Source of the DNA: Brevundimonas sp. AAP58
GTDB taxonomy: Bacteria > Pseudomonadota > Alphaproteobacteria > Caulobacterales > Caulobacteraceae
DNA: 64,000 nt
NCBI RefSeq assembly: GCF_001295975.1
Contig: NZ_LJHU01000018.1
Coordinates: 62,001 to 126,000 of the forward strand
Reading direction: 5' to 3'
Of this stretch, positions 52,495-56,697 are shown piece by piece (the stretch's first letter is position 1; every line of letters starts with the position of its first letter). The notes under the pieces were generated by a model. It did not search any database, was not told the DNA's origin, and was given only the letters and a program-made list of their open reading frames with translations. The translations under genes were made by a program, and so were the position numbers.

Positions 52495-53646
52495 ATGGCC
52501 TGGACCGCGATTTCGACCCGAAACGAGACACCGCCCATCGCGCGCGGGGGTTGGCTGGACGCGCTGCGGTTCATCGTGGCCTCGCTGATCATCCTGCATC
52601 ACTTCCAGGCGGCCGGGCCGGTGCCCCTGGCCGAGGCGCTCCATCCGGTGTTCGAGCGGGGCGGGTTCCTGCTGACCAACTTCTTCCTGATCGACAGCGG
52701 CTATGTGCTGATGCGGGTCTATGGCGGCTCGGTCGGATCAGGGCGAATGTCGCCGGGCGACTTCTTGCTGAAGCGGTTCCTCCGGGTCTATCCGGCCCAT
52801 CTGATCATGGTGCTGGGGCTGGTGGCCCTGGTCATCGTCGGATCGGCGGTCGGGTTCGCCCCGCGTAATCCCGAATGGTTCGCGTGGGACCAGCTGCCGG
52901 CGCAGGCGGCCTTGGTCCAGTCATTCGGCGTCTATGGCGGGCTGGGCTGGAACGCGCCCAGCTGGTCGATCTCGGCGCTGCTGGGCTGCTATCTGGCGTT
53001 TCCGTGGATCCTGACGGCGCTGAAGCGGGTCGGGCCGTGGACGGCGCTGGTCGCGGCGGCGGGGCTGTATCTGCTGGCCAACCAGCTGACCCACAGCCTG
53101 CTCGGCTATCCCGTCTATCAGATGCCGATGATGTACGGCGTGTGGCGGGCGCTGCCGCTGTTCATGCTGGGCATGGCGCTGGCGGTGTTCTCCGAGCGGG
53201 TGTTCGTGGCACCGCGCCTGGCGCGGATCGTCGGGGTGGCGGCGGCGGTCGGGCTGGCGACGGTGCAGGCCTTCGACAAGCATGCGCTGATCTCGATCGT
53301 CTTCATCAGCCTGATCCTGCTGGCGGCGGGGGCCATCCCGGTGACGCGGCCGTCCAAGTGGGTGGAGAAGGCCAGCGTCGTCTCCTTCGCCATGTTCATC
53401 ACCAATGAGCCGGTGAGGATCGCCTGGTTCGGCGTGGTCAATGTGCTGATTGCGCGCCTAGCCCTGCCGGTCGGGGTGCAGTGGGGGCTGTGGGCCCTGG
53501 GGGTGGCTGCGGCGTTCGCCTTCGCCTTCGCCTTCCACGCGATGGTCGATCAGCCGATCCAGAACCGGATCAAGGGCTGGCTGGCGCGGCGGCGGACGGC
53601 TCGGGGTCCGGTCGAGGCCGGGCCGGTGGTATCGATCGAGGGCTAG
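52495..53646 (+). CDS. Acyltransferase 3 family membrane protein
   Basis: 383-residue, roughly ten-helix membrane acyltransferase. WLDALRFIVASLIILHHFQ is the family N-terminal motif with the catalytic-type His; FFLIDSGYVLM and LLKRFLRVYPAHLIMVLG (R-x-x-R/P) follow. The family O-acetylates or acylates envelope sugars such as LPS or exopolysaccharide. Target unknown. ATG 52495 follows AGAGG. Confidence 0.88.
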   Translation: MAWTAISTRNETPPIARGGWLDALRFIVASLIILHHFQAAGPVPLAEALHPVFERGGFLLTNFFLIDSGYVLMRVYGGSVGSGRMSPGDFLLKRFLRVYPAHLIMVLGLVALVIVGSAVGFAPRNPEWFAWDQLPAQAALVQSFGVYGGLGWNAPSWSISALLGCYLAFPWILTALKRVGPWTALVAAAGLYLLANQLTHSLLGYPVYQMPMMYGVWRALPLFMLGMALAVFSERVFVAPRLARIVGVAAAVGLATVQAFDKHALISIVFISLILLAAGAIPVTRPSKWVEKASVVSFAMFITNEPVRIAWFGVVNVLIARLALPVGVQWGLWALGVAAAFAFAFAFHAMVDQPIQNRIKGWLARRRTARGPVEAGPVVSIEG

Positions 53647-53673: not shown

Positions 53674-53843
53674 CTTTCGTCATTCCGGGCGACGGGAGCG
53701 AAGCGACCAGAGACCCGGAACAGGGCGGCGCGCGAGAGCGCGAACCTGTCACGCACGAGTCTCCTGACGCATTTCGCCTGCGCTCCGCTCCGGCGCCGCC
53801 CTGTTCCGGGTCTCCGCTGCGCTCCGCCCGGAATGACGAAAGA
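53674..53843. repeat. Imperfect inverted repeat, REP-like
   Basis: The left arm (53674-53731) and right arm (53793-53843) are inverted copies that share TTTCGTCATTCCGGGCG, a GAGCG/AGCG segment, and GAGACCCGGAACAGGGCGG; the left arm has a few extra bases. It fills most of the 275-bp gap after the acyltransferase gene. Elements of this kind are common between alphaproteobacterial genes and may end transcription. Confidence 0.8.
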
Positions 53844-53921: not shown

Positions 53922-55064
53922 ATGAGTGACGCGTGTCTGAAGGACGTCTTCATCACCGGGACCGGGGCTTTTCTGCCCGGTGACCCCGTCGGCGTCGAGG
54001 CGATGGAGGACCACATCGGCCGGATCGGCCGACGATCCTCGGCGGTCGGGCGGCGCGCTCTGCGCTGGAACGGGGTCGAGACGCGGCACTATGCGCTCGA
54101 TCGCGATGGACGACCGCTGCATTCCAACGCCTCCATGACCGCCGATGCGCTCCGGGCGGCGCTGGACGACGCGGGGCTGGCGGCCGCGGACCTCGACTTT
54201 CTGGCGACGGCGACGACCCAGGGCGACTATCTAGTCCCCGGCCACGCGGCGGCGGTGCATGGCGAGCTGGCTTGCGGCCCGATGGAGATCGCCAGCCACC
54301 AGTCGGTGTGCGCCTCGGCCCTCACAGCACTCAAGCATGCCTGGCTCTCGGTGCGGGCAGGGGAAGCCGAGGTCGCGGCGACGGCGGCCGGGGAGTTCTC
54401 ATCCCGCTGGTTCCGGCCGCAGTTCTATGAGGGCACGACGCTGGTCGACGCCAGGGGCCGGGCGCGGGTCGAGGCGGACTTCCTGAGGTTCACCCTGTCG
54501 GACGGGGCGGGCGCGGTGGTGCTGGAGCCCAAGCCCAGGCCGGAAGGGCTGTCGCTGAAGATCGAGTGGATCGACCTGACCTCGCTGGCCGGGCGGTTCG
54601 ACCCGTGCATGTGGGCGGGCTCAACCTTCGCCGATCGCTCCGACATGCGTTCGGCCTGGAGCCACGCGGGGCCGGTCGCGGCCCATGCGGCCGGGGCGGT
54701 GGCGCTGGTTCAGGATTTCGAGCTGCTGAAGATCGTGATCCGCGCCTGGATCGGGGTCTGGCTGGAGAAGGTGGATACGGGACGAATCGTGCCGGACCAG
54801 ATCGATCACCTGCTGTGCCATTATTCCGCGCGGTCGCTGAGGGAAGAGATCGTGGGACTGCTGGAGAGCACGGCTGCCATGATCCCCGAGGAGAAGTGGT
54901 TCTCGAACCTGTCCAGCGTCGGCAATATCGGGGCGGCCTCGATCTGGGTCATGCTGGACGCCTTCCTGAAGTCCGGACGGGCCAAGCGGGGCGAGCGCGT
55001 GCTGCTGATCGTGCCCGAGAGCGGTCGGGCCATGGTGGGATTCGCGATGGGCGAGGTGGTGTGA
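53922..55064 (+). CDS. Beta-ketoacyl-ACP synthase III-like enzyme
   Basis: 380 residues with a thiolase fold. Active-site Cys130 in HQSVCASALTALKHAWLSV, catalytic His in DHLLCHYSAR, and Asn in SVGNIGAASIWVMLD. LRFTLSDGAGAVVLEPKP is typical. It is longer than housekeeping FabH and differs from it (for example IASHQSVCAS), so it is probably a specialised condensing enzyme. The stop overlaps the next gene's ATG (TGATG). With the next two genes it forms a tightly coupled operon of unknown product. Confidence 0.85.
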   Translation: MSDACLKDVFITGTGAFLPGDPVGVEAMEDHIGRIGRRSSAVGRRALRWNGVETRHYALDRDGRPLHSNASMTADALRAALDDAGLAAADLDFLATATTQGDYLVPGHAAAVHGELACGPMEIASHQSVCASALTALKHAWLSVRAGEAEVAATAAGEFSSRWFRPQFYEGTTLVDARGRARVEADFLRFTLSDGAGAVVLEPKPRPEGLSLKIEWIDLTSLAGRFDPCMWAGSTFADRSDMRSAWSHAGPVAAHAAGAVALVQDFELLKIVIRAWIGVWLEKVDTGRIVPDQIDHLLCHYSARSLREEIVGLLESTAAMIPEEKWFSNLSSVGNIGAASIWVMLDAFLKSGRAKRGERVLLIVPESGRAMVGFAMGEVV

Positions 55065-55747
55065 TGGCGGACGGCGCGCGGATCGATGACCCGGTGGCGG
55101 ACACCCTGCGAAAGCTGGCGCTGGTGTTCGCCGACTTCGAGCAGCGGCTGGAGGCGACGCCCCTGATCCGCAAGCTGACGCGTGGGCGGTTCGAGCTGGC
55201 GGACTATCACGCCTTCCTGATCAACCTGCGCCAGCAGGTGAAGGACGGGGCGCTGTGGATGAGCCGCGCGGCCTCCAACATCGGCGAGGATCACCTGGAA
55301 CTGCGCTCGACCCTGATGCGCCATGCGGTGACCGAGCACCGCGATTTCCGCCTGCTGGAAGCGGATTTCGTCGCGTCCGGCGGGGAGCTGTCGGTCATCC
55401 GATCGGCGAAGAAGAACGTCGGGTCCGAGGCCCTGTCGGCCTGGATGTTCCATGAGGCGTCGAAGCCCGACCCGTTCGGCCTGCTGGGCGCCATGTTCAT
55501 CATCGAAGGGCTGGGCTCGATCAAGGCCGCGCCCTGGGGGCGTCAGGTCAAGGAACGGCTGGGCCTGCCCGACGAGGCGGTGCGGTTCCTGCTCTATCAC
55601 GGCGAGAACGACGCCGAGCACATGGCCGAGTTCGAGGAAATGCTCCGCATGGTCCTGCCCGACGACGCGGTCGCCGAGCGCATCGTGACGACGGCGAAGG
55701 TGACGGCCCGGCTCTATGCCCTGCAGATCGAGGAGATCGGCGCTTGA
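55064..55747 (+). CDS. Heme-oxygenase-like diiron protein
   Basis: 227-residue all-helical protein of the iron-containing redox (TenA/heme-oxygenase-like) superfamily. Candidate metal ligands: H87, E91 and H92 in RHAVTEHRDF, E148 in FIIEGLGS, and H179, D183 and H186 in YHGENDAEHMAEF, matching the H-x3-D-x2-H helix of heme-oxygenase-like diiron oxidases such as UndA and SznF. No heme-proximal motif is evident. The reaction is unknown; the neighbouring KAS III-like enzyme suggests an acyl substrate. It overlaps both neighbours by 1-4 nt. Confidence 0.78.
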   Translation: MADGARIDDPVADTLRKLALVFADFEQRLEATPLIRKLTRGRFELADYHAFLINLRQQVKDGALWMSRAASNIGEDHLELRSTLMRHAVTEHRDFRLLEADFVASGGELSVIRSAKKNVGSEALSAWMFHEASKPDPFGLLGAMFIIEGLGSIKAAPWGRQVKERLGLPDEAVRFLLYHGENDAEHMAEFEEMLRMVLPDDAVAERIVTTAKVTARLYALQIEEIGA

Positions 55748-56697
55748 GCCTGTCTGACGGCGGGGCCGCCTGGAAATCCGATCCGTTCGATCCACGCCGA
55801 TACGACAGCCGCGATCCGGACCCGTGGCTGGCGCTCTATCTCGACCACTCCCTGCCGATCGATCCCGGGGCCAAGCGGGCCCTGCTCATGGGCGCCCGGT
55901 CGTGGTCGCGGCGGTGGCTGTTTCCGGTCAGCCGGCCGCTGGTGTTCCTGTTCTTCTGTCTGGTGAAGGTGCTGCGCGCCATCTCGCCCCGCTACCCCAA
56001 CCTGAACGGCCTGCTGCACAAGTCCATCCACTGGGGCTTGCGGACTTTCGGCAGCCCGGAGTGCAACACCCTGATCCTGCGCCATTTCCACGTCGGGACC
56101 GAACTGCTCGCCTTCATGAAGGCCAACGCCGGGATCGATCCGGAGCTGGTCAAGACCGTGCCGCTCAAGCCCCTGACGCTGAGGGATCTGGAGGACAACG
56201 TCTTCCTTCAGCACGACCTGAATGTCTTCAACTTCATCATCGAGCTGAACCTGGCCCTGCGGGCGGCGGGCAAGGAGATCACGCCGCCGGACCGGGTGGA
56301 TTTCTCCATGATCTCCGACATCGACCCGGCCTTCGAACGCTTCCCGACGGGCCCCCTGAACCGCATCGACATCCAGACGGCGGTGGAGTTCTACACGCCG
56401 CTCTATGCGCTGATGCTGCCCCGCGCCGACTTCATGCGCGCCAGTCACTCGCTGCAGCTGGACGAGATCGTGGGCATCTACATCGGACGGATCCTCGGCA
56501 CCGACTACCACATGAGCTTCGTCAAGAACGGCCATCCGCTGGTGGCCCTGTCGACGCTGCAGGCGGGCTACCGGCTGATGATGCACGGCCTGGACTGTGA
56601 GGCCATGCATGGGTGGCTGCGGGTCCTGAAGGCGCGCCAGGAGGCCGGTCTGCCGCTCGATCCGCGCGATCCTACGGGCGGGCCAGAACTTGACTAG
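55744..56697 (+). CDS. Unknown protein of the KAS III-diiron operon
   Basis: 317 residues, TTG start overlapping the previous stop (TTGA). One likely membrane or membrane-associated helix lies near residues 60-77 (VSRPLVFLFFCLVKVLRAI). The rest is helical and rich in His and acidic residues: LILRHFHVGTELLAFM, VFLQHDLNVFNFIIELN, RASHSLQLDEIVGIYIGR, TDYHMSFVKNGHPLVAL and MMHGLDCEAMHGWLR. The spacing of His/Glu/Asp on helices would permit a metal site, but no known family motif was recognised. Its coupling to the two upstream genes implies a common pathway. Confidence 0.7.
   Translation: MSLSDGGAAWKSDPFDPRRYDSRDPDPWLALYLDHSLPIDPGAKRALLMGARSWSRRWLFPVSRPLVFLFFCLVKVLRAISPRYPNLNGLLHKSIHWGLRTFGSPECNTLILRHFHVGTELLAFMKANAGIDPELVKTVPLKPLTLRDLEDNVFLQHDLNVFNFIIELNLALRAAGKEITPPDRVDFSMISDIDPAFERFPTGPLNRIDIQTAVEFYTPLYALMLPRADFMRASHSLQLDEIVGIYIGRILGTDYHMSFVKNGHPLVALSTLQAGYRLMMHGLDCEAMHGWLRVLKARQEAGLPLDPRDPTGGPELD

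Follow-up and report, generated by a model that had tools for sequence, protein, structure and literature searches.

What do the three overlapping genes that Brevundimonas sp. AAP58 carries for a condensing enzyme, a heme-oxygenase-like protein and a protein of a family without assigned function make together? The genes lie on the plus strand of a window of 64,000 nucleotides (the whole stretch of DNA analysed, from whose first letter all positions are counted):

53922 to 55064, plus strand, gene 1: ketosynthase (KAS) of a StlD/DarB-related branch, 380 aa
55064 to 55747, plus strand, gene 2: heme-oxygenase-like (HDO-fold) protein, PF14518, 227 aa
55744 to 56697, plus strand, gene 3: DUF6999 protein, PF22523, 317 aa, TTG start

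Genes 1 and 2 overlap by 1 nt (TGATG) and genes 2 and 3 by 4 nt (TTGA), confirming the overlaps of 1-4 nt given in the initial annotation. Overlaps of the KAS and HDO genes (-1 or -4 nt) also occur in most Caulobacterales loci, and those of the HDO and DUF6999 genes (-4 nt) in many. The nearest matches of the trio are Brevundimonas records, with identities of up to 97% for gene 3. Relative to six Brevundimonas or other Caulobacteraceae relatives, dN/dS is 0.04-0.30 for all three genes, and purifying selection acts on each of them. Within the operon we identified no dedicated acyl carrier protein, Rfam gave no match in the operon region and a promoter scan found no sigma-70-like site. An acyltransferase 3 gene had also been described upstream, beyond a repeat, and both are present:

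52495 to 53646, upstream of the operon: acyltransferase-3 gene (PF01757)
53674 to 53842, between acyltransferase and operon: nested inverted repeat, outer arms 18 nt (100% complementary), inner arms 27 nt (93%)

Since the acyltransferase adjoins the trio only in the window's closest relatives, we place it outside the unit and rejected it as a fourth part. The repeat looks like a dispersed palindromic element, as its outer arm sequence has 11 copies in the genome, several of them in facing pairs ~150-160 nt apart.

Beyond the window, we identified the trio in ~50 loci of Pseudomonadota, in the same order and on the same strand in all (three of them have the ketosynthase cut by a contig end). 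This number of matching gene orders is far beyond chance and strongly favours the grouping proposed in the initial annotation. Among the hosts are Brevundimonas, Caulobacter vibrioides, Phenylobacterium, Sneathiella, a Pseudoalteromonas plasmid and other Pseudomonadota. Spacing is tight nearly everywhere, the widest gaps being 1116 nt between KAS and HDO in L074 and 599 nt before DUF6999 in L090. DUF6999 is patchily distributed, with occurrences in 9 of 398 genomes of the phylum sample, 6 of 289 of the class sample, 25 of 299 of the window's order, and 11 of 200 and 2 of 198 of a second and third order, respectively. The HDO profile, searched over 200 genomes of the window's order, returned two clearly separate groups: 16 orthologues (E 1e-101 or better) in 16 genomes, all 16 of which are DUF6999-positive, and 14 paralogues (E 4e-24 or worse) in genomes not found to carry DUF6999. 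Pairwise distances over 44 loci are correlated for all gene pairs (r 0.96 for KAS/HDO, and 0.87 for both KAS/DUF6999 and HDO/DUF6999). That the three genes form one biosynthetic unit we consider secure. We found no open-licence paper on a trio of this kind, and the KAS-HDO-DUF6999 combination appears to be undescribed in the searchable open-licence literature.

A mobile or phage origin of the trio was rejected, as there was no phage match and the one plasmid match is a large Pseudoalteromonas replicon. On that plasmid, a 185-aa hypothetical gene without a Pfam match lies directly 5' of the trio (L081:6621-7178), and a 188-aa gene of similar size and place, also without a Pfam match, was found in a second locus (L062:11941-12507). 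In a third, a transporter, an acyltransferase and an AMP-binding (acyl-ACP-synthetase-like) domain, fused in one protein of 1133 aa, are encoded directly 3' of the trio (L061:5697-9098).

The ketosynthase and the HDO are encoded by a single ORF of 618-657 aa in 11 loci (L055-L060, L082-L086), all outside the Alphaproteobacteria. Such a fusion, lying next to a partner gene that is conserved, argues strongly for an action of the HDO on the ketosynthase product, and it is for this reason that we propose such a step. As the three genes always occur together and two of them are sometimes fused, a single oxidised lipid, not described previously, is very probably their joint product. The fusions also bear on the idea that the HDO consumes O2 or peroxide as a protection against stress, the other two genes being incidental. 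Such consumption has been proposed for DtpC of Acinetobacter baumannii, which carries an HDO domain and restricts peroxide in dried cells (PMC13232832), but the idea is highly improbable for an HDO whose orthologues are joined to a ketosynthase in 11 loci and, in the order sample, were found solely alongside DUF6999.

Immediately upstream of the fusions, a PF04116 fatty-acid hydroxylase and a PF00487 desaturase are both encoded in eight loci; one locus has just the desaturase, and two have just the hydroxylase. With one or both enzymes at 11 of 11 fused loci, they might be regarded as core partners of a trio that alters existing acyl chains, for example in envelope remodelling. The acyltransferase/acyl-ACP-synthetase-type gene directly 3' of the trio in L061 and the borderline membrane helix of DUF6999 (see below) are consistent with modification of membrane lipids. 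Nevertheless, neither hydroxylase nor desaturase was found at any unfused trio locus, and an existing chain needs no condensing enzyme; we regard this explanation as improbable.

The Cys-His-Asn triad of the condensing enzyme, described as intact in the initial annotation, was seen as C130-H300-N335:

54309 to 54311, plus strand: Cys130 of gene 1, catalytic, unchanged across 29 aligned sequences
54819 to 54821, plus strand: His300 of gene 1, triad member
54924 to 54926, plus strand: Asn335 of gene 1, triad member

These catalytic residues are common to StlD, DarB-type enzymes and FabH; C130, E158, H300 and N335 are kept in 28 of 28 trio rows and also in the StlD and DarB-type rows. The best structure match of gene 1 is StlD (5gk0, E 1e-68). 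Gene 1 stays under the cut-offs of both StlD/DarB models, with 347 bits for NF005293 (cut-off 450) and 308 bits for NF053539 (cut-off 550), so its product may differ from theirs. The cut-off of the FabH model TIGR00747 was not reached either (61.5 bits, cut-off 292.1). We placed 28 trio rows in a tree together with StlD, three FabH and seven ketosynthases of DAR/aryl-polyene-type clusters. The trio ketosynthases branch outside the DarB/StlD clade (97/92) as its sister, with weak support for their single origin (38/18), and are set apart from FabH (100/100). Judged by its sequence, gene 1 encodes a sister of the StlD/DarB ketosynthases and not a FabH.

Residue 105, which we take to be the OleA/PpyS base position (transferred through FabH F87), is Val, Leu or Met in the trio ketosynthases and not Glu; StlD and DarB are likewise aliphatic there. 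OleA and PpyS, KAS III-like enzymes of the thiolase fold by which two acyl chains are coupled, require this Glu, which reaches in from the neighbouring monomer, as a base (PMC4578411). The trio enzyme shares their superfamily, and a two-chain condensation would also be compatible with the fusions. Even so, given the replaced Glu and the weak matches to OleA (E 5e-8 or worse, where StlD reaches E 1e-68), it is quite improbable that two saturated acyl thioesters undergo a non-decarboxylative head-to-head Claisen condensation to a beta-ketoacid, pyrone or ketone that the HDO then oxidises.

The StlD/DarB relationship offers a more specific comparison. DarB-class enzymes join two acyl thioesters, converting a beta-ketoacyl and an enoyl thioester to 2,5-dialkylcyclohexane-1,3-diones (PMC4578411), and we propose a similar joining for the trio ketosynthase. 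DarA is annotated as an aromatase (PMC3949708). Within the 299-genome sample, seven of the seven ketosynthases over the StlD/DarB cut-off adjoin a flavodoxin-like DarA-type gene or sit in such a cluster, and DarH was identified in one of these seven DarA-type loci. No DarA-type aromatase adjoins the trio, and none was found in 16 of 17 trio genomes; the remaining genome (G379) has a DarA homologue located elsewhere. Thus, the trio resembles DarA-DarB and StlC-StlD (dialkylresorcinol and isopropylstilbene biosynthesis, respectively) in its ketosynthase, a sister enzyme that shares their catalytic residues and likewise lacks the OleA-type Glu, and differs in having an HDO and DUF6999 in place of the adjoining aromatase. 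Because DarA accompanies DarB-type enzymes but turned up in just one of the 17 trio genomes, we propose that the HDO supplies the oxidation.

Gene 2 matches PF14518 with 40 bits (cut-off 28.9), and its model (pLDDT 95.4) superposes on 3dde with Z 27.1 and rmsd 1.8 over 216, and on CADD with Z 24.8. The protein is thus predicted to have the heme-oxygenase-like fold of UndA, CADD, BesC, SznF, HrmI and AetD, from which it differs in being partnered, and sometimes fused, with a ketosynthase. The structure models were made without the plasmid locus L081. Among PDB entries, 3bjd of P. aeruginosa, titled 'putative 3-oxoacyl-(acyl-carrier-protein) synthase', superposes over the same ranges and with near-equal Z as the HDO FlcD, so its title looks misannotated. 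The H-x3-D-x2-H motif noted initially is present as H179-GEN-D183-AE-H186, and further putative ligands precede it:

55322 to 55345, plus strand: H87-x3-E91-x2-D94 of gene 2, altered first-helix motif, invariant in 29 sequences
55505 to 55507, plus strand: E148 of gene 2, middle carboxylate ligand place, invariant, in the 'IIEG' helix aligned with 3dde
55598 to 55621, plus strand: H179-x3-D183-x2-H186 of gene 2, standard last-helix ligand motif, invariant

We take the ligands of CADD to be E81, H88, E142, H174, D178 and H181, which would place them on H87, D94, E148, H179, D183 and H186 (offset 5-6). The motif E-H-X-H-D/E-H is found in ~85% of HDO groups (PMC11363339). Gene 2 shares its last four places (E148, H179, D183 and H186) with the HDOs named above; the first pair does not fit, being E91/D94 with H87 in place of E/H, so that the first helix reads H-x3-E-x2-D. 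In the alignment, D94 falls on the standard His and H87 lies seven residues earlier, and E-x2-H stands at this place in 3dde and in four Caulobacterales HDO paralogues. HDO-fold proteins from trio-less Caulobacterales genomes (L110-L113) have the usual E-x2-H motif. A His at the H87 place can reach the metal site, since H72 of AetD, in a motif of equivalent spacing (H72-x3-D76-x2-H79), helped to bind a stray metal in one crystal (PMC10654658). With non-standard first-helix ligands, the HDO may not bind two irons. We consider gene 2 to encode a probable non-heme iron oxidase.

The initial annotation had suggested that an acyl chain could be extended and then oxidised, cleaved or decarboxylated in the manner of UndA. 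The pairing of a condensing enzyme with an O2-using HDO is upheld by the gene fusion. We do not favour simple chain extension with a subsequent decarboxylation as in UndA, because the ketosynthase groups by StlD/DarB, enzymes that condense two acyl chains and cyclise them. UndA (4wwj, 6p5q) is among the fold matches of gene 2 but not among the closest, and the ketosynthase is not FabH-like. Although the fusions also point to a hand-over from ketosynthase to HDO in such a scheme, it seems unlikely that a beta-ketoacyl chain is made and then decarboxylated or cleaved to an alkene, ketone or aldehyde.

Gene 3, initially assigned to an unknown family, is a clear member of PF22523 (DUF6999; 368 bits, cut-off 27), itself a family without assigned function. 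Our search of the open-licence literature found no function, structure or paper for DUF6999. The model is confident (pLDDT 90.6) and all helical, and hydropathy indicates one borderline membrane helix near residues 59-77. Fold searches returned nothing usable with Foldseek against the PDB (best E 0.88), VIA (best Z 3.9, mostly GPCR bundles) or BFVD (best E 0.2), which does not prove a new fold, and profile searches against the PDB and Pfam gave nothing convincing. The possibility that DUF6999 is a divergent HDO was rejected, the profile comparison giving a probability of 0.1. Several His, Asp and Glu residues look like a candidate active or metal site:

56083 to 56601, plus strand: H114, H157, D158, D209, D240, H281 and E286 of gene 3, unchanged in 33-34 sequences with identities as low as 25%

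Gene order, co-occurrence, fusion, clade, the predicted fold of gene 2 and residue conservation are the basis on which we tentatively propose that the trio is an O2-dependent relative of dialkylresorcinol (DAR) biosynthesis, making an oxidised two-chain lipid. Given its clade and active site, the ketosynthase would load an acyl thioester on C130 and draw a second one from general fatty-acid metabolism. Their head-to-head joining would, as with DarB and StlD, generate a beta-dicarbonyl product of the cyclohexane-1,3-dione type or similar. The HDO, in place of the missing flavodoxin-like DarA aromatase, would hold its metals by some or all of H87, E91, D94, E148, H179, D183 and H186, activate O2 and oxidise the ketosynthase product on direct hand-over, by aromatising desaturation, oxidative decarboxylation or hydroxylation. 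In the least certain step, the membrane-associated DUF6999 protein may carry out a further reaction or deliver the greasy intermediate. In some lineages, the membrane hydroxylase and the desaturase could further modify the chains. It is possible, if doubtful, that the trio represents an unrecognised class of bacterial lipid pathway, with a dedicated KAS-HDO pair, a new H-x3-E-x2-D ligand arrangement, a third enzyme of new fold with its own His/Asp/Glu site and a lipid class that is not yet known.

Functionally validated HDOs number only about a dozen (PMC13108848). The HDO family of the trio is therefore a useful entry point, with the likely source of its substrate written into its own polypeptide, and in vitro work could conveniently use the natural KAS-HDO fusions, each of which is a single protein. 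If the proposed pathway is true, DUF6999 would gain a function, and the HDO superfamily would be extended by a branch that is coupled to a ketosynthase and has an unusual metal site. The pathway would also point to a lipid not yet known in bacteria, including the model Caulobacter vibrioides, where it would be tractable for deletion and lipidomics.
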